Assembly: GCA_002350855.1 (NCBI GenBank)
Contig: DEFM01000001.1
Span: forward strand, 7,762 to 71,761
Reading direction: 5' to 3'
Source: Prevotellaceae bacterium UBA2852
Lineage (GTDB): Bacteria; Bacteroidota; Bacteroidia; Bacteroidales; Bacteroidaceae
DNA: 64,000 nucleotides
Below the pieces are notes generated by a model. The model had not been told where the DNA came from. It saw only the letters and a program-made list of their open reading frames with translations, and searched no databases. This document shows, piece after piece, positions 4,095 to 62,338 of the stretch. Both the position numbers and the translations under genes were made by a program. Position 1 is the first letter of the stretch. Every line of letters starts with the position of its first letter.

Positions 4095-5381
4095 ATGATT
4101 AACGAAAAAGAAAATTGGCAGAATGGCGAATCGGGCGAACGTCGTCGCCGTCCACGTTTCAACACCAGTGAACGTGCCTATTCAAGCAACCCAAACAGAG
4201 GTTACAGCCGTGAAGGATTTAACAATTACAGAGACGACAATATCAGACCCGCTTATGGAGCGCGTCCGTCGTATGGTTACAGAAACACGACACAAGGTTA
4301 CAACAATCAGGAACGTAATCAGTATCCACGTCCATATAACAACGGAGGCTATCACCAGAACCGTGATAACGGATTTGGTGATGAAGGATTCGGCCAGCAG
4401 CGTCAGGGCGGCTACGGACAGAACCGTGGCGGTTATGGTCAGCAGCGTCAGGGCGGCTACGGACAGAACCGTGGCGGCTATGGTCAGCAACGTCAGGGCG
4501 GTTACGGACAGAATCGTGGCGGCTATGGTCAGCAGCGTCAGGGCGGCTACGGACAGAACCGTGGCGGCTATGGTCAGCAGCGTCGTCAGGGAGGCTACAA
4601 TCCAGAAAACAAGTACTCTCTGAAGAAGCAGATTGATTACAAAGAATATATTGAAGATCCAGACGCACCAATCCGTCTTAACAAATACCTTGCCAACGCA
4701 GGTACTTGCTCTCGTCGTGAGGCAGACCAGTTTATCCAGGCTGGTGTTGTGAAGGTGAACGGACAAATCGTTACCGAACTCGGAACAAAGGTGCTTCGTA
4801 CAGATACAGTTCACTTCCACGACCAGCTCGTGTCGCCAGAGAAGAAAGTCTATGTGCTGCTTAACAAGCCAAAGGACTATGTTACCACAAGCGACGATCC
4901 TCAGCAGCGCAAGACTGTAATGGAACTCGTGAAGAACTGCTGCCGTGAGCGTATCTATCCAGTGGGACGTCTCGACAGAAACACTACTGGTGTGTTGCTC
5001 TTCACCAACGATGGTGATCTGGCATCAAAGCTTACACATCCTAAATTCCTGAAGAAGAAAATCTACCATGTGTTCCTCGACAAGAATGTTGCACACTCTG
5101 ATTTGCAGCAGATTCTTGACGGTGTGACTTTGGAGGATGGTGAGGTACGCGCAGATGCTATCTCCTATGCTTCAGACACAGACAAGAAGCAGGTTGGTAT
5201 TGAAATCCACTCAGGAAAGAACCGCATCGTACGCCGTATATTTGAATCACTCGGCTACAGAGTACTCAAGCTCGACCGCGTGATGTTCTGCGGACTTACC
5301 AAGAAAGGACTCAAGCGTGGTGACTGGCGTTTCCTCACTCAGCAGGAAGTTGCTATGCTCCACATGGGAAGTTTTGAATAA
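4095..5381 (+). CDS. RluB/RsuA-family rRNA pseudouridine synthase with a long Gly/Gln/Arg-rich N-terminal tail
   Basis: A 428-residue protein. Residues 1 to about 185 are low-complexity, rich in Arg, Gly, Tyr, Asn and Gln, and include four tandem 15-residue units of [15 protein letters not shown] (residues 105-164). An S4 RNA-binding domain follows (about 193-250, starting [20 protein letters not shown]), then the RsuA/RluB catalytic domain with [20 protein letters not shown]; the catalytic Asp is residue 294. By homology it isomerises a uridine of 23S rRNA (U2605 in E. coli RluB). RluB homologues of usual length lack such a tail at the N-terminus. The tail is positively charged and predicted disordered, so it may aid RNA binding or condensation (inference). 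asnS follows after 20 bp. Confidence 0.92.
4407..4586 (+). repeat. Four tandem 45-bp coding repeats in the pseudouridine synthase gene
   Basis: Units begin at 4407, 4452, 4497 and 4542, each 45 bp and in frame, encoding [15 protein letters not shown]. They differ only at a few third-codon positions; the last unit ends in an Arg codon and is followed by another QG. Near identity at DNA level suggests recent expansion by slippage or unequal exchange, so copy number may vary between strains. Confidence 0.95.
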
Positions 5382-6875: not shown

Positions 6876-7877
6876 TCAGCCGAGCCTGAAGACACCAAGG
6901 ATTTTATCCATAACCCAGTTGACAGATGTAGCAGTATTGTTGTCGCAGTCACAGGTGGAGATGCCGCGCAGATGGTCAACTACGAGTTGGATGAGGGGCT
7001 GTTGCACATGTGGCGGATTGGGAATGCTGAATTCCTGATGTCCTTTCTGGTTGTCAAGCGTTATTGGTTTATAGTCAAATACGGAAAAGGCAATGGTGCC
7101 GTTTTCACCTACAATCTCTATACGGTCCGTTCGTGCTGATTCATGTGCGACGAAGCACCATGATGCAGAGCCTGTGATTCCACAGTCGAACTTGAAGCAG
7201 GCATTGATAGTGTCCTCCACCTTGTACAGCCCAGCCATATTACTGCAGAATCCCTCTGCCTCGATGATATTGCCGAGCATGTCCTGAAGAAGGTCTATCT
7301 GGTGGGGTGCAAGGTCGTAGAAATAACCACCACGACCGGCGATGTCGGGTTGCAGACGCCAAGGAAGGTTGGTCTTGTTGTAGTCAAGTTCGCGTGGCGG
7401 GACAGCAAAGCGAATCTGAACTGAAAGGATGCGTCCCAGACTTCCGTTGCGCACCAGCTCCTTCACTTTCTCGAAGTAGGGCAGATGGCGGCGGTAGTAT
7501 GCTACAAAACAAGGAATGTTGAGGAGTCGTGAGATGCGGTTGATGCGAACGCAGTCTTCGTAAGTCGCTGCCATGGGCTTCTCAATGTAAGCTGGCTTAC
7601 CTGCCCTCAAAGCCATGATGGCGTAGGTGGCATGTGAAGAGGGTGGGGTGGCGATGTAAATGGCATTGACATCGGGATCGGAAATGAGCGACAGGGCATC
7701 TGTGTAGTAGCGTGCAATATTGTGACGCTGTGCATAGGACTTAGCCTTTTCTGCATTACGACTCATTACGGCAACGACTTCAGAACCTTCAATCTGTGCG
7801 AATGCCGGTCCACTCTTTTTCTCGGTGACTTCACCGCAACCGATGAATCCCCATTTTACAGTTTCCAAAGCGTACAT
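6876..7877 (-). CDS. Gfo/Idh/MocA family oxidoreductase
   Basis: A 333-residue NAD(P)-dependent sugar or polyol dehydrogenase-like protein. The Rossmann motif is WGFIGCGEVTEKKSG (residues about 9-23), and the EKP motif lies in YIEKPMAATYEDC (about residue 98), as in glucose-fructose oxidoreductase and inositol dehydrogenase. The C-terminal alpha/beta domain has DLAPHQIDLLQDMLG, which includes the conserved DxxxHxID-type catalytic pattern. No signal peptide is seen, so it should be cytosolic. Neighbours do not reveal its substrate. It is divergent from the next gene across a 138-bp region containing a repeat of family A (7883-7912). Confidence 0.9.
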   Translation of the reverse strand: MYALETVKWGFIGCGEVTEKKSGPAFAQIEGSEVVAVMSRNAEKAKSYAQRHNIARYYTDALSLISDPDVNAIYIATPPSSHATYAIMALRAGKPAYIEKPMAATYEDCVRINRISRLLNIPCFVAYYRRHLPYFEKVKELVRNGSLGRILSVQIRFAVPPRELDYNKTNLPWRLQPDIAGRGGYFYDLAPHQIDLLQDMLGNIIEAEGFCSNMAGLYKVEDTINACFKFDCGITGSASWCFVAHESARTDRIEIVGENGTIAFSVFDYKPITLDNQKGHQEFSIPNPPHVQQPLIQLVVDHLRGISTCDCDNNTATSVNWVMDKILGVFRLG

Positions 7878-7882
7878 GATAA

Positions 7883-7912
7883 GCGAAGAGTTAAGAGTGA
7901 AGAGTTAAGTGA
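7883..7912. repeat. Dispersed repeat family A copy (GAAGAGTTAAGAGTGAAG type)
   Basis: This short direct-repeat element begins 6 bp from the start codon of the oxidoreductase gene. Related copies lie at 36922, 38689, 61106 and, inverted, 62213. Confidence 0.7.
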
Positions 7913-36510: not shown

Positions 36511-36921
36511 ATGAAAATTTCTCGTATTGACCATCTGGGCATCGCTGTCCAGAGCATCGAGGAGGTTCTCCCTTATTTTGAGAATACTCTCGGACTCAAG
36601 TGCTACGCTATTGAAGAAGTAGCTGATCAGAAAGTTAAGACTGCCTTCCTTAAAGTGGGCGAAGTTAAACTCGAACTCCTGGAGCCAACAAGTCCTGAGA
36701 GTGCTGTCGCTAAATTCCTTGAGAAGGGCGGCAAGGGTGTGCACCACGTGGCTTTCGCTATTGAAGACGGTGTGGCTAACGCTCTCGCTGAATGTGATGC
36801 CCAGGGCATCCGACTCATTGACCAGAAGCCTCGTCCAGGTGCAGAACAGATGAACATCGCTTTCCTGCATCCGAAGTCAACAGCTGGTATCCTCACCGAA
36901 CTGTGTGAACCACAGAAATAA
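36511..36921 (+). CDS. mce: Methylmalonyl-CoA epimerase
   Basis: A 136-residue glyoxalase/VOC-fold enzyme. MKISRIDHLGIAVQSIEEVL and LKVGEVKLELLEPTSPESAV are family hallmarks, with HHVAFAIEDGVANAL and the final ILTELCEP supplying metal ligands (His8, Glu and His of the VOC fold). It interconverts (R)- and (S)-methylmalonyl-CoA between methylmalonyl-CoA mutase and decarboxylase in the succinate-propionate pathway. mmdA follows 63 bp later, the gap filled by dispersed repeats. Confidence 0.95.
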   Translation: MKISRIDHLGIAVQSIEEVLPYFENTLGLKCYAIEEVADQKVKTAFLKVGEVKLELLEPTSPESAVAKFLEKGGKGVHHVAFAIEDGVANALAECDAQGIRLIDQKPRPGAEQMNIAFLHPKSTAGILTELCEPQK

Positions 36922-36973
36922 GTGAAGAATGAAGAATATCCATCCGGTTTTATAATTTATAATTTATAATTTG
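36922..36973. repeat. Dispersed repeats, family A then family B, between mce and mmdA
   Basis: GTGAAGAATGAAGAAT (family A, 36922-36937) begins directly after the mce stop, and TATAATTTATAATTTG (family B, ending 36973) follows. Together they make up nearly the whole intergenic spacer. Confidence 0.7.
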
Positions 36974-38550: not shown

Positions 38551-38688
38551 AGTGAATTCTTGGAGCAGTGAAGGCAGAGCTGAACTTGTTCAGGCTATGC
38601 TGAGTCGTGACAAGTTATCGACGATACCTCTGAAATAACTCAAAGAGTCGCTTGCGAAGCAAGAATCACAGAACGAAGTGATGTAATA

Positions 38689-38713
38689 GTGAAGAGTTAA
38701 GAGTGAAGAATTA
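38689..38713. repeat. Dispersed repeat family A copy upstream of the OadG fusion gene
   Basis: GTGAAGAGTTAAGAGTGAAG plus AATTA. It is embedded in a 252-bp spacer (38551-38802) that also holds a CTTGC-GAA-GCAAG hairpin (about 38651-38663), an ACTTAA-type run and a family D copy. No gene is seen in this spacer. Confidence 0.75.
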
Positions 38714-48676: not shown

Positions 48677-48680
48677 AGAC

Positions 48681-48766
48681 GTGCCCGTGGCAGGGTTAGG
48701 GATATCCAATCCCTTCGGAATCCGTGCCCGTGGCAGGGTTAGGGATATCCAATCCCTTCGGAATCC
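48681..48766. repeat. Two exact tandem copies of a 43-bp element
   Basis: Units at 48681-48723 and 48724-48766 are identical and start GTGCCCGTGGCAGGGTTAGG. Each contains the inverted repeat AGGGAT-ATCCA-ATCCCT. They fill the gap between the tRNA-Arg terminator and the stop codon of the Cys-rich gene at 48773. Confidence 0.95.
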
Positions 48767-57358: not shown

Positions 57359-57376
57359 ATGAAAGGAGAATCAGAA

Positions 57377-58672
57377 ATGGAAAATATGACACAATTTATA
57401 TTAGCTAGCATAGGAGTATTCTTGGTTGTAATACTCGTTGTGGTAGTTATTCTGCTCGTAGCAAAGAAATATCTTTCTCCAAGTGGAAACGTCACACTCA
57501 CCATCAACGGAAAGGACACTCTTTCTGTAGAGCAGGGTAGTAGTGTGCTCGCAACACTTGCTGCCAACAACATCTACCTCAGCTCTGCCTGCGGAGGTAA
57601 AGGTTCTTGCGGACAGTGCAAGTGCCAGGTTGTAGAAGGTGGCGGTGAAATCCTCGACTCAGAGAAAGGACACTTCACACGTAAGCAAATCAAGGAGCAC
57701 TACCGTCTTGGCTGCCAGTGCAAGGTTAAGGGCGACCTCTCTATCAAGGTGCCTGAATCAGTCATGGGTGTTAAGGAATGGGAGTGCACAGTTATTGGAA
57801 ACAAGAACGTTGCCACCTTCATCAAGGAGTACAAAGTGGCTCTGCCTCCAGGCGAGCACATGGACTTCGAACCAGGTTCTTACGCTCAGATCCGTATTCC
57901 GCAGTTCGACTGCATCGACTACGACAAGGACTTCGACAAGTCTCTCATCGGCGACACTTATCTGCCTGCTTGGGAGAAGTTCGGTCTCTTCCCACTCAAG
58001 TGTACCAACCCTGAAGCCACAGTTCGTGCTTACTCTATGGCCAACTATCCTGACGAAGGCGATATCATCACACTCAACGTCCGTATCGCTACACCTCCGT
58101 TCAAGCCAAAGGATCAGGGTCCAGGCTTCATGGATGTAAATCCAGGTATCGCTTCAAGTTACATCTTCAGTCTGAAACCAGGCGACAAGGTAACTATGAG
58201 TGGTCCTTACGGAGAGTTCCGTCCAGTCTATGGCAGCGGACGCGAGATGATTTGGGTCGGCGGTGGTGCCGGTATGGCTCCTCTCCGTGCACAGATCATG
58301 CACATGCTCAAGGGTCATGGAGTCAGCGATGAAGACCGTAAGCGTCCTATGCACTATTTCTATGGTGCACGTGCGCTGGAGGAAATTCCTTTCCTCGACG
58401 ACTTCCTGCAGTTGGAGAAGGACTTCCCCAACTTCCACTTCCACCTTGCTCTCGACCGTCCGGATCCAAAGGCAGACGCAGCTGGTATCAAGTACACTCC
58501 TGGCTTCGTTGCTCCTGTTATGGGTGATACCTATCTCAAGGCTCACGAGGCTCCAGAAGACTGTGAATACTACCTCTGCGGACCTCCAATGATGGCGAAG
58601 ACAGTTCTCGACCTTCTCCACTCACTCGGTGTAGAAGACGACATGATCCGCTTCGACAACTTCGGTGGCTGA
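57377..58672 (+). CDS. nqrF: Na+-translocating NADH:quinone reductase subunit F
   Basis: A 431-residue NADH-oxidising subunit. An N-terminal membrane helix (about 7-29) is followed by a [2Fe-2S] ferredoxin domain with Cys72, Cys78, Cys81 and Cys113 (ACGGKGSCGQC...GCQC), an FAD domain (VRAYSMANYPDEG) and an NADH-binding domain (GGGAGMAPLRAQIM; YYLCGPPMMAKTVLDLL). The start at 57377 follows AAAGGAGAA, an SD-like site, and gives the usual short N-terminus; 57359 would add six residues. Its last codons are part of a 37-bp sequence repeated 110 bp downstream. Confidence 0.96.
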   Translation: MENMTQFILASIGVFLVVILVVVVILLVAKKYLSPSGNVTLTINGKDTLSVEQGSSVLATLAANNIYLSSACGGKGSCGQCKCQVVEGGGEILDSEKGHFTRKQIKEHYRLGCQCKVKGDLSIKVPESVMGVKEWECTVIGNKNVATFIKEYKVALPPGEHMDFEPGSYAQIRIPQFDCIDYDKDFDKSLIGDTYLPAWEKFGLFPLKCTNPEATVRAYSMANYPDEGDIITLNVRIATPPFKPKDQGPGFMDVNPGIASSYIFSLKPGDKVTMSGPYGEFRPVYGSGREMIWVGGGAGMAPLRAQIMHMLKGHGVSDEDRKRPMHYFYGARALEEIPFLDDFLQLEKDFPNFHFHLALDRPDPKADAAGIKYTPGFVAPVMGDTYLKAHEAPEDCEYYLCGPPMMAKTVLDLLHSLGVEDDMIRFDNFGG

Positions 58673-58808
58673 CGGTCTGGAAAAGATTGAGTATCTTTTC
58701 CAAACCGGCGTGGGATGGTAGTAGCTTCTCGCGAGGCAAGGAACGAAGCCGAAGCGAAAAGCGAACGTACATCGGTGGCTGACGGTCTGGAAAAGATTGA
58801 GTATCTTT
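58662..58808 (+). repeat. 37-bp direct repeat flanking a 73-bp segment at the nqrF 3' end
   Basis: Positions 58662-58698 and 58772-58808 are identical (starting TCGGTGGCTGACGGTCTGG). The first copy contains the last three codons and stop of nqrF. The segment between holds TCTCGCGAGGCAAGG and a run of CGAAGC-type words. The terminator at 58811 follows only the second copy. Confidence 0.93.
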
Positions 58809-58810
58809 AT

Positions 58811-58847
58811 AAAAAAAGGGTTCCCAAATCGGGAGCCCTTTTTTTTA
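58811..58847. terminator. Bidirectional terminator between nqrF and the DUF5107 gene
   Basis: AAGGGTTCCC and GGGAGCCCTT form a 10-bp stem with an AAATC loop and A/T runs on both sides; it serves both convergent operons. Confidence 0.92.
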
Positions 58848-61800
58848 TATACCTTGTTTACCTAACTCTATCATCTTTTTGCAGTGGATTTCGTTCGCTT
58901 CCTGCAAGTCGCCTTCCCAGATAAGGAGGTCGGGTAGCGACACAGCGAAGTAGTCCATCCGAACCGTATCGAAGAGGTGGTTCTTGCCGTAGTTGATGAG
59001 TTTGTAGAACAGACCTCTGGCTTTGTCTTCCTGCCCCAGGGCGCGGTAACACAGAGCTGCGAAGTAGATTTTCTCAGGCTTTGCATCGTTGTAGTACATC
59101 GCTGCGGCTGGTTCGGTAGGACCTGCTGTGCCGAGAGTCCACATCTCCTTTGCCTTTTCCATGTCGCCCTTCTTCTCGTATGCCTTGCCAAGATAATAGT
59201 AGAAATCGTTGTCCTGCGCTCCGTAGAGTTTGCCCTCTCCCAGATTATGCGGAAAATACAGACATTCCTCCAACAGGGTGATAGCCTGGTCTGGATCTTT
59301 TTCTATGAGTTTCTTGGCCATTTCCAGACGGCAGAGCTGGTATTGTCCGCTGACCTTTCCTTCACCGCCTTCCCAAGGATGGAATATGTGGCTGTCGATA
59401 AGTTCTTTGGCTTCTTCGTGTCGTCCGAGGCTGTTGAGCAGAGTTGCACGTTCCAGTATAAGATCGTCACGCTGGGCTACCAGCTGCGGATACTCCTCGA
59501 AATATGAGAATCGTTCTTCTGGCGATTGCTTCAGACGTTTACGCAGCTGATCCAGTTCCATAAAGATACGGCTGTCACTCTCGTCCAGGGCAAAGGCACG
59601 TTCCATGTATTCCAAAGCCTTTGCCGACTCTTTGCGCTTGTTAAACAGACCCAGGGCGAGGTTGCGCCATACGGTTGGATATTGCGGGTCGAGCTTGGCA
59701 GCCATTTCCCAGTTCTCCATAGCCACGTCATACTGCCGTTTGTCGTAGTAGAGGCAACCCAGATAGTAGGGAGCACGCGCACCTTGAGGATTCAAAGCCT
59801 TGGCGCAGTTCAGGGCAATCACATCCTCCAGACGGTTTGGCAGACAGCCGTTTGAATCCATCGTCTCTGCTTTCTTGAACCACAGGGTAGCTTCGTCTGT
59901 GTCGCTCTCCATTGCGGCAAACCATCCTAAGTAATATGCCGTCAGCGGATGTTTTGCAGGAACATCCTTCAGACACATTGCCGCCTCGTCCCACAATCCA
60001 GCTTGGGCATAGTCCAGAGCCAGCTCGTGGTAGTTGTATATATTGCCGTGCATCAGGCTGTGGATGCGCTGCAGCGGTTCGTCGCTGTCGGTCAATAGGT
60101 GCTCTTCCATCATGCAACCATAGTTGAACGCATCAATTTCGTATGACGACTTTATCCATACGAGAGCCTCTTCCTTGCGTCCCAATTTGCGAAGCACGGC
60201 AGCCTTCAGGGCACGAGCCTTGTGGTTGTGGGTGTTGCTGATGAGACATCGTTCCACTTCGTCGAGAGCGTCTTCGTAGCGTTGCTCAGCCATACTGATA
60301 CAAGCAGCTTCATAATAGCCAGCATCAGCCCAGGCTTTGTTCCACGTCGATTTCCAGAACCAGTTGTAAGCCTCTTCATTCTTTCCTTGCAGTTTCAGAC
60401 AAAGTGCGAGGTAGAAGAGAGGCTCGCCGTCGTAGGGGTTCGGATTGCGTTTCTGCAGCACCTTTACCGCTGTGCGGAGATATGTCTCTGCTTTGTCGAA
60501 ACGTCCGCGGCGCAGATACCACAGACCCATCTGGCTGTTGCAGCGGTAGTCGCGTGGATCTCTTCGTAGAGCTTCTTCGTAGTAGTCGAGGGCCGACCAT
60601 GTGGCGTGTCGGTACTGTTCCAGGTGCAGACCGGTCAGATAGAGCTGGTCAACGGTCTTTGTGTCCTCAGGGGGCAGAGCTGCTTCGGCAGGGTCGGGGA
60701 TAGGACGGATGTCGTCGGGTTCGGCTTCCCAAGTCAGATTGCCGACTGTCAGAATCAGGTCGCTCAGAGCCGCTCCTTTCACATCGACAGTCTCGTCAAG
60801 GATATTCTCCGGCGACAATGTCAGCACATTATTATAATATATTTCACCGTTTCGGTTGCGAAGCACAATCCGCACTTCTTTCTTCGAGGTGGCTTGAACC
60901 ATGAAGCGGACACCCTTGCCGGCTGCGCTTTCTATGTTCAGGAAAAAGTCCTTCGAAGCCTGTTTCACCACACCCAGTTCGCGGTAAGGCATGAAGTACT
61001 GGGTAAACTGCTTTTCCTCGTAAGGCATGAGCCATGTGAAGTCAGGCTGGTTCTCCGTGTACACTCCAGCCATCAGTTCGATGTAGGGGCGGAAACCTTT
61101 ATTAAGTGAAGAGTTAAGAGTTAAGAGTGAAGAATCATCAGCTTCATCAGTCAGATTTCTGTCCCATGCGCGTCCGAAGTCGCCGTTGCCCCATGTCCAT
61201 TGCTTCTTGCCAGGACTGAGATGATGGCTTGCCACGTGGAGCATACCTCCGTGGGTGTCGTTCTCGTAGCCGCCTTCGAAGTTGTATTTGGAGTTTACCG
61301 CCATGTAGCTGGTCGGCACTTTGATGTTCTTGTAGTTCGAGATGTCCACTCCAGCCGAGTAGTCCATCTTGTAGTATGTGCCTGTGGCAATAGGGAAAGA
61401 CGAAACGGCACGCTTACCGTGGTCAAACACTGCATTTACATCGGGTGGAAACACACTCTGGTATGCGTCGTTCACCTCAACTGCGGGGTTTGCCCACCAC
61501 AGGAAAGTCTGAGGCAGATTGGTGCGGTTCGACACACGCCCTTTGATTTCCAGATAGGCACAGCCTGGACGCAGCGTAAATCCCGCCATTCCCTTCTGGT
61601 GGAACATCCTTTCCATCTCGTTCACCCATACAGTCACGCTGCCGTCCTCATTCTCCTCAATAGTGCTGTCCACAGTCATGTAGGTAGACGGACGGTGGTG
61701 CTGAGGCCAGTTGAATTCAATACCTCCGCTGATCCACGGACCGAGCAAACCTACGAGGGCAGGTTTGATTACATGGTTGTAGTAGACGAAATGGCGCTGC

Positions 61801-62057
61801 TTCACCTTGTCGTAGGCCATCTGCACTCGTCCTCCCAGTTCCGGGAGAATCATCACCTTGATATATTCGTTTTCCAGATAAACAGCCTGCCATTCCTTAT
61901 CGACCTTCTCGTCGGCCATGCTTTCTATCACCTGATAGGGATAGACCACTCCACTGGAACCCTGATACACTCTTTTCTCAAGAAAAATTGGATTCTTTTC
62001 CGGTGCTCCCACCTCGTATGTGGGAATAACCACCGTCTCTTTCCATGCTTTTACCAT
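58845..62057 (-). CDS. DUF5107/TPR protein
   Basis: A 1070-residue protein without a clear signal peptide. Residues about 20-370 form the DUF5107 region, likely a mutarotase-like beta-sandwich: ILPELGGRVQMAYDKVKQRH, PWISGGIEFNWPQHHRPSTY, YLEIKGRVSNRTNLPQTFLW. From about residue 520 there are at least ten TPR-like helical pairs (HATWSALDYYEEALRRDPRD; AETYLRTAVKVLQKRNPN; NALGRHEEAKEL-type). Residues about 303-320 (TDEADDSSLLTLNSSLNK) interrupt a stretch that would otherwise read NLTDE-PYIELMAGVYTENQ, and derive from a dispersed repeat. The divergent MFS sugar transporter suggests a carbohydrate role. The start at 62057 omits 15 residues of a longer frame. Confidence 0.88.
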   Translation of the reverse strand: MVKAWKETVVIPTYEVGAPEKNPIFLEKRVYQGSSGVVYPYQVIESMADEKVDKEWQAVYLENEYIKVMILPELGGRVQMAYDKVKQRHFVYYNHVIKPALVGLLGPWISGGIEFNWPQHHRPSTYMTVDSTIEENEDGSVTVWVNEMERMFHQKGMAGFTLRPGCAYLEIKGRVSNRTNLPQTFLWWANPAVEVNDAYQSVFPPDVNAVFDHGKRAVSSFPIATGTYYKMDYSAGVDISNYKNIKVPTSYMAVNSKYNFEGGYENDTHGGMLHVASHHLSPGKKQWTWGNGDFGRAWDRNLTDEADDSSLLTLNSSLNKGFRPYIELMAGVYTENQPDFTWLMPYEEKQFTQYFMPYRELGVVKQASKDFFLNIESAAGKGVRFMVQATSKKEVRIVLRNRNGEIYYNNVLTLSPENILDETVDVKGAALSDLILTVGNLTWEAEPDDIRPIPDPAEAALPPEDTKTVDQLYLTGLHLEQYRHATWSALDYYEEALRRDPRDYRCNSQMGLWYLRRGRFDKAETYLRTAVKVLQKRNPNPYDGEPLFYLALCLKLQGKNEEAYNWFWKSTWNKAWADAGYYEAACISMAEQRYEDALDEVERCLISNTHNHKARALKAAVLRKLGRKEEALVWIKSSYEIDAFNYGCMMEEHLLTDSDEPLQRIHSLMHGNIYNYHELALDYAQAGLWDEAAMCLKDVPAKHPLTAYYLGWFAAMESDTDEATLWFKKAETMDSNGCLPNRLEDVIALNCAKALNPQGARAPYYLGCLYYDKRQYDVAMENWEMAAKLDPQYPTVWRNLALGLFNKRKESAKALEYMERAFALDESDSRIFMELDQLRKRLKQSPEERFSYFEEYPQLVAQRDDLILERATLLNSLGRHEEAKELIDSHIFHPWEGGEGKVSGQYQLCRLEMAKKLIEKDPDQAITLLEECLYFPHNLGEGKLYGAQDNDFYYYLGKAYEKKGDMEKAKEMWTLGTAGPTEPAAAMYYNDAKPEKIYFAALCYRALGQEDKARGLFYKLINYGKNHLFDTVRMDYFAVSLPDLLIWEGDLQEANEIHCKKMIELGKQGI
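61106..61134. repeat. Dispersed repeat family A copy inside the DUF5107 reading frame
   Basis: GTGAAGAGTTAAGAGTTAAG plus AGTGAAGAA on the plus strand, the same words as the intergenic copies at 7883 and 38689. On the coding (minus) strand it is read SSLLTLNSSL without a stop. Confidence 0.85.
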
Positions 62058-62089
62058 TGTTTTGATAGATATAATGATAGTTTCTGTGG

Positions 62090-62097
62090 CAAAGTTA
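62090..62097 (-). promoter_or_regulatory. -7 element of the DUF5107 gene
   Basis: TAACTTTG on the minus strand, about 33 bp before the chosen start; no clear TTTG at the proper distance. Confidence 0.55.
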
Positions 62098-62140
62098 GTC
62101 ATTTATGGTGATTTATGGTGAATTATTACAACAATTTATA

Positions 62141-62148: not shown

Positions 62149-62212
62149 CACATAACAATTTTTTTAATTCATAATTGATAAGTCATAAGTCATAATTGAA
62201 AGTTGTCAATCG

Positions 62213-62329
62213 TCTTAACTTCTTAACTTCATAACTTCTTAACTCCTAATTAGGTAACTACTCCTCCCCATTACGGGGGAGGTTGGGAGGGGGTCTTCCC
62301 CTCCATTACGTGATGGGTAAGGGGTGTGT
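62213..62329. repeat. Inverted family A copy followed by two family C copies
   Basis: 62213-62245 (CTTAACTTCTTAACTTC type) is the reverse complement of family A. 62263-62294 (CCTCCCCATTACGGGGGAGG and on) matches family C, and 62295-62329 is a more diverged C-like unit with CATTACGTGATGG. These fill nearly all of the leader before the MFS gene. Confidence 0.75.
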
Positions 62330-62338
62330 CTTTTTAAT

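Follow-up and report, generated by a model that had tools for sequence, protein, structure and literature searches.

The 29 bp at positions 61106–61134 of the window, that is, of the whole 64,000-nucleotide stretch of DNA analysed, probably represent one arm of a repeat family that is scattered over genomes of Prevotellaceae type, enters genes and persists there only where translation remains possible. Copies of the family are dispersed over unrelated genes and intergenic DNA in many species, and in both the loop that holds the window copy and a loop of arginyl-tRNA synthetase the repeat differs from species to species. Since the window copy carries neither the core nor the left arm of the full palindrome, its tie to that element is one we infer from the arm sequence, the reading and the common loop.

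The array and its relatives in the window

The array lies inside a gene with a DUF5107 domain and TPR repeats, and consists of four 7-bp units and one A with a period of 7 (Table 1). Read on the minus strand, which is that of the host gene, it gives TTCTTCACTCTTAACTCTTAACTCTTCAC, and the coding-strand reading DDSSLLTLNSSLNKGF given in the original prediction is correct. The claimed match to intergenic copies was likewise confirmed: GTGAAGAGTTAAGAG is found exactly at 38689 and 61106 and with one mismatch at 7883, and the copies at 7883 and 38689 are outside every ORF of at least 120 aa in the window. The array 29-mer has a single occurrence in the window at up to three mismatches. When up to six mismatches are allowed, the first 28 bases fall into three clusters (7876–7883, 38682–38689 and 61106–61113), with none in 100 dinucleotide shuffles. 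A profile made from the right halves of the element in other genomes ranks the same three window arrays at the top (E values of 1.6e-6, 4.5e-5 and 8.5e-5), the next window match having an E value of 0.73.

Table 1. Coordinates of the host gene, its loop and the arrays in the window
Feature	Position	Strand	Remark
Host gene, 1085 aa, DUF5107 domain then TPR repeats	58845..62102	-	Frame open through the insert
Variable loop, host residues 320–338 (EADDSSLLTLNSSLNKGFR)	61089..61145	-	Various repeats here in related genomes
Heptamer array GTGAAGA GTTAAGA GTTAAGA GTGAAGA + A	61106..61134	+	nhmmer E 1.6e-6 to the right half of the element
Intergenic array relative	7880..7909	+	E 8.5e-5; directly upstream of ORF 6876–7877 (-)
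Intergenic array relative	38685..38712	+	E 4.5e-5
Weak short array relative	36921..36936	+	E 0.73; alone not significant
More short-period arrays	62165..62244	.	Period 7 TAATTCA, period 8 TCTTAACT; immediately upstream of the host gene

With up to three mismatches the core of the element gives 21 matches in the window against 17.9 expected, so the window copy is without the core; its left arm is absent as well. An RNA-family search with the window and three loci matched solely four window tRNAs, and a known RNA family was rejected as the identity of the repeat.

Several other repeats were seen in the window. A G-rich intergenic stretch at 62252–62330, upstream of the host gene, resembles the G/C-rich loop palindromes of relatives described below. 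An exact 37-bp repeat covers 58662–58698 (the end of ORF 57359–58672 and the following bases) and again 58772–58808, a perfect 43-bp tandem duplication is located at 48680–48766, and 4395–4584 holds 4.2 tandem copies of a 45-bp unit.

Structure and distribution of the palindromic element

In related genomes the full element is a palindrome of about 100–115 bp, in which about four AGTGAAG-like heptamers are followed by the TTTGCTNCCGC core, a variable centre, GCGGNAGCAAA and CTTCACT-like inverted heptamers. This core family was found by searching with the element of locus L127. Within one Prevotellaceae genus, 56 of 299 genomes contain the exact DNA core (reversed control, 2), and none of 295 genomes drawn from the order does (reversed control, 4); of 150 genomes of the genus searched with the 36-residue reading of the element, 48 gave a match. 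The arms and the core are conserved and the centres are distinct in 72 of 74 copies, with the 22-nt centres being on average 35% identical compared with 80% for the arms. The two arms of one copy are 86% complementary, against 78% for arms taken from random other copies. The heptamer type varies from genome to genome. In genome G185 (L488–L490) an additional inverted word, GACGTGTTGATGAGCGTAGCGAGTAA, is situated between the core and the heptamers, and none of the nine copies examined there is in an ORF.

A search for a mover, in which the transposases sought were of the Y1 type only, found none. Y1 transposases were found in 12 genomes out of 14, with 10 of them above the cut-off, and not in G148 or G113, both of which carry copies and may be incomplete; on these weak grounds a Y1 transposase as the general mover was rejected. 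In alignments of genes with and without the insert, loop codons are replaced, and no target-site duplication was found, the array ends being too fuzzy for one to be seen.

The footprint of translation

The relation of the copies to reading frames was assessed on a DNA-only sample of 75 copies, made up of 60 from the DNA-pattern matches listed, a list confined to the first places in each genome, and 15 added later (nine of them from G185), and leaving out five listed places (one in G145, one in G106 and three in G130). Of these copies, 35 are in ORFs of at least 200 aa, and these agree without exception in phase and in a centre length of 1 mod 3; the other 40 copies are distributed 16/14/10. 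A set of 74 copies, which also holds 11 of the first 60, was mostly fetched via a protein query, so that its coding share of 51/74 is biased; here the centre is 1 mod 3 in 51/51 copies in ORFs and in 19/23 outside. The absence of stops from in-ORF copies is true by definition, whereas the mod-3 rule is not. The frame of the centre is a footprint of translation, open to test in culturable strains.

If the left arm simply mirrored the right, in-frame stops would be present in 43 of the 51 in-ORF copies, giving 54 stops in total. All 54 of these would-be stop codons differ from the mirror, compared with 149 of 456 other codons, and they are altered by varied substitutions (TGA to TTA, GGA or CGA; TAG to GAG, AAG or CAG). 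Of the TTCAC subfamily, 18 of 28 in-ORF copies have a palindrome interrupted at the stop base, compared with none of the 20 copies elsewhere (Fisher p 2e-6, for one chosen position). The TACAC subfamily shows the same break in 14 of its 15 in-ORF copies, but all 3 of its other copies show it too; as these breaks extend outside ORFs, the palindrome-break contrast comes from the TTCAC subfamily only.

In-frame copies in other genes

Seventeen of 20 in-ORF hosts of the core family (19 further hosts and L304; 10/10 and 7/10 in two sets) have a Pfam domain at the cut-offs applied. Arginyl-tRNA synthetase, RecG, threonine synthase, CarB and cobyric acid synthase are above the NCBIfam cut-offs, a CCA-adding-type enzyme, below the cut-off, is a host in two genes and at two sites, and the other hosts include an RsmF-like methyltransferase, glycosidases and an ABC transporter.

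A search of ten genomes with the insert of L056 gave a further family, named AATTGAC. Its full in-frame copies are located in arginyl-tRNA synthetase, the glutamate synthase small subunit, an NRPS and a PssA-like gene of G001, in a GH2 beta-galactosidase of G004 and in UvrB of G010, and the family is also present at two loops of the same DUF5107 gene. The PssA and beta-galactosidase host matches are below the NCBIfam cut-offs, with the Pfam domains present. Solved homologues are shorter at the insert, by 12 residues for arginyl-tRNA synthetase (2zue), 22 for UvrB (2fdc) and 14 for the glutamate synthase subunit (7mfm), according to manual gap counts.

Arginyl-tRNA synthetase is a second hot spot, with repeats in 4 of 30 fetched loci (L389, L391, L396 and L409) in addition to L155 of the AATTGAC family. 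L389 is the same gene as L304, L391 has the right half alone with a core remnant, and L396 and L409 have plain arrays. An M24 peptidase hosts the element in L300 (G007) and L436 (G145), apparently at the same site, and may be a third hot-spot gene.

The host gene and its variable loop

The nearest relatives of the host protein are from Prevotellaceae, Bacteroidaceae and Xylanibacter ruminicola, among others. P0001, which is 99% identical and represents a cluster of 19 members, has the same insert with one residue changed. It had been proposed that the repeat breaks an otherwise smooth run and amounts to an insertion of 15–18 residues, neither of which agrees with the homologues. In 121 rows (the window protein and the 120 homologues listed, from 7996 proteins scored) the segment from NLTD to PYIELM has 11–47 residues, with 22 in 45 of these rows and 23 in the window; in 80 genome loci it has 7 residues in 34, 11–28 in most others and 34–77 in seven. 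The window loop is longer by only 3, 12 and 1 residues than those of P0002–P0004, the closest listed relatives beyond its own species cluster. The original prediction was to fail if most homologues carried a segment of similar length with Ser, Leu and Asn residues: a similar length is indeed found in many, and most of those segments are neither rich in these residues nor made of the repeat. No clean pair of an empty and a filled site was found for the window copy, the closest listed proteins beyond the species cluster being 75–80% identical and variable in the loop. In a heptad-periodic insert, P0006 and P0022 are exactly 7 residues (21 bp, three heptamers) apart in length.

The comparison was extended to 125 distinct DUF5107 genes (80 loci, 50 from further genomes of the genus and the window, minus 6 duplicates). 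Heptamer arrays are present in this loop in 10 of them and at any insert of the gene in 23 (manual count), and the reading frame is open in 123, with L128 and L130 broken. On a quick tree made with FastTree only, on which gain and loss are indistinguishable, the 10 tips with the heptamer state at the loop require no fewer than 9 changes, or 14 with the G-rich class included. This second class, consisting of G/C-rich palindromes, is in frame in the loop of six genes (L033, L091, L094, L119, L123 and L124). These palindromes read PLTPPEGGWKG...LSPSGEQ or PTPMPLP.... The loops of L006, L012 and L083 (SDGSxxGI) have a short palindrome, TCCGACGG...CCGTCGGA, perfect or almost so, which is a possible third class.

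The DUF5107 loop of L127 contains a two-armed full element, whose right arm reads GDSSLFTLHSSLKPGF where the window reads DDSSLLTLNSSLNKGF, and its junction is nearly that of the window. L021 and L127 are near neighbours with a common core at the same site and different arm heptamers; judging from the sequences, it looks as if the arms had been replaced or homogenised to the current unit of each genome.

In the AlphaFold model of the host the pLDDT is about 20–40 across residues 188–379, so the conformation of the loop is not readable from the model. In better-modelled parts, the inserts near residues 396, 455, 573, 640, 770, 824 and 935–937 would be placed between predicted helices or strands, and those at 390, 646–648 and 675 would touch a predicted strand or helix. 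The best 50 matches of a fold search include eukaryotic and designed TPR-type proteins and other superhelical proteins; 5cd6 matches the host domain, in an alignment that stops short of the loop.

Heptamer arrays across genomes

The 81 sequences examined (1.6 Mb) contain 96 arrays of period 7, 45 of them in ORFs, compared with 1–26 for periods 5, 6, 8–13 and 15 (period 14 is a multiple of 7). Likewise, 399 kb of G001 contain 55 such arrays (20 in ORFs) against 0–7 for seven other periods, and 400 kb of G126, which has a 3.45-Mb contig, contain 7 (2 in ORFs) against 0–1 for the other periods. Tandem units of 7 nt are thus in excess over other periods, as is typical of a long simple sequence repeat of heptamers. 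A partner array within 200 bp is inverted rather than direct in 14 versus 2 of 70, 4 versus 0 of 11 and 28 versus 2 of 115 cases.

The like of a coding array is found 7.6 times as often on the contig of that array, beyond the host gene, as on other contigs, and 11 of 41 coding arrays have an own-contig like against 2.1 expected. With up to three mismatches, the window 28-mer has 167 matches in G148, the genome of L127, and 0–33 in 13 other genomes, whereas the reversed 28-mer, which also forms a heptamer array, gives 1 in G148 and up to 25 in one other genome. For the AATTGAC family, a 20-base spacer word has five occurrences in G001 against none for the reversed control; over 14 genomes the numbers are 11 and 4.

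For 62 in-ORF arrays, on average 2.24 of the three sense-strand frames are open, compared with 0.84 on the opposite strand and 0.91 for intergenic strands (ORFs, here as in the other counts, were taken from a longest-ORF script, not a gene finder); this is what is expected if insertion is blind and selection acts afterwards. Because a heptamer array passes through the same seven codons in each frame of a strand, a stop-free heptamer encodes one peptide in any frame. Such a frame-independent peptide would be a simple route from a repeat to a protein linker.

Origin of the window copy

We propose that copies arise by insertion, and that selection would then strip all but the stop-free, frame-keeping copies in tolerant loops. 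The window copy would be a one-armed derivative, either a remnant that has lost the stop-bearing arm or an arm alone; half elements do occur, one being that of L391. After arrival, slippage may well tune the length of the array, and the product would be a linker without a demonstrated function. The repeat is best regarded as selfish DNA that the host tolerates, and the family would account for the odd Ser/Leu/Asn-rich loops in these proteins. The part of the original prediction that a dispersed repeat enters coding DNA and is tolerated as protein is upheld by the 35 of 75 copies in frame and by the conserved enzymes among the hosts; the direct proof of movement that it saw at this site is not borne out, as no empty site was found, the core and left arm are absent and movement was not observed.

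In a quite different history, nothing moved: replication slippage would have expanded the array where it stands, in a length-tolerant loop, and the mutational bias of the genome would have yielded similar units elsewhere. The nearly perfect period of the window array, the difference of exactly three units between P0006 and P0022 and the existence of plain arrays without a core, both here and in L396 and L409, are all what slippage would produce, and the heptamer is a favoured slippage unit, PMC4679880 giving the idea that 7 nt fits polymerase slippage. We nevertheless consider this history unlikely, for the units match the dispersed family of the same genome, full copies in unrelated genes have a common non-repeated core and phase, and the AATTGAC spacer word recurs above its controls. 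It is far less probable still that a Ser/Leu/Asn-rich loop has come to use repeat-like codons by chance. Although the loop is variable and of similar length in many homologues, the shuffles and the E value of 1.6e-6 to a profile from other genomes led us to reject a chance similarity, and related arrays are present in the same loop elsewhere.

It could also be imagined that the element is never represented in the protein, through ribosome bypass or through removal from the RNA or the protein. Palindromes that are bypassed in yeast (Magnusiomyces) mitochondria are mentioned in PMC6649704, and such a process would explain palindromes within genes with no linker tolerance needed in the hosts. However, a bypassed or excised element need not keep its centre at 1 mod 3 in 35 of 35 in-ORF copies or the host frame open throughout, which makes this idea highly improbable.

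Returning to the proposed entry of a dispersed repeat under selection for translation, a more specific form of it can be put forward only tentatively, and we doubt it more than we believe it. The Prevotellaceae might possess genus-restricted coding palindromes whose stop-free, gene-adapted forms copy themselves from gene to gene in frame, each with a new centre, which would point to an undescribed copying mechanism (e.g. hairpin-primed template switching) and not to ordinary transposition. If true, this would be a mobile unit with a spread shaped by translation.

Comparison with known systems

Heptamer direct repeats are known as TAACTGA sets in Beggiatoaceae, cyanobacteria and five Bacteroidetes, where they form short, mostly intergenic arrays, and the authors point out that stop codons restrict the entry of heptamers into genes (PMC4679880). 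The present element shares with them 7-nt units in short arrays. In contrast to those repeats, which have one direct heptamer and are rarely genic, it has inverted arms, a core and many in-frame copies. BrickBuilt, a MITE of Porphyromonas gingivalis, is described in PMC4596501 as having 23-nt units and IS5-type terminal repeats and as being always intergenic; it is like our element in having tandem repeats within an inverted-repeat element, and in belonging to the same phylum. The arms of the element are inverted; a link of these arms to the terminal repeats of an autonomous IS, as in a MITE, would be conjectural, the transposases sought being of the Y1 type. The intragenic small elements ERIC, NEMIS (107-bp form) and QMITE1 and the REP/RAYT systems are small repeats, some with gene-fused ORFs (PMC2229807 and PMC10969869). 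They are likened here by description and not by sequence, and Y1 enzymes were found in 12 of the 14 genomes, G148 and G113 being the exceptions. The 188-bp intergenic repeat of P. intermedia (PMC4755523) is different from the element. No description of the element in Prevotella was found in the open-access full text searched, subscription papers being beyond the scope of the search.

The closest parallel is provided by the Rickettsia palindromic elements (RPE) and the Wolbachia repeats. According to PMC2229807 and PMC10969869, these are about 105–150 bp long and dispersed, both intergenic and in frame in conserved genes with a conserved peptide; nearly half of the palindromic elements of R. 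conorii are in ORFs, and Rickettsia and Wolbachia are the main groups for which the translation of palindromic repeats within conserved genes is known. The share of 35/75 in ORFs is similar in our element, which in related genomes is likewise a palindrome within the range of about 100–150 bp dispersed in one genus (the window copy being one arm), and whose core and AATTGAC families both have in-frame copies in conserved genes with a similar peptide. Unlike RPE, it comes from a different phylum, has arms of tandem heptamers, of a type that varies between genomes, and has centres that differ in 72 of 74 copies. By analogy of behaviour, and not of sequence, the element thus appears to work like an RPE and is not classed as one, and the behaviour of the Rickettsia and Wolbachia palindromes would now extend to gut and rumen Bacteroidales.
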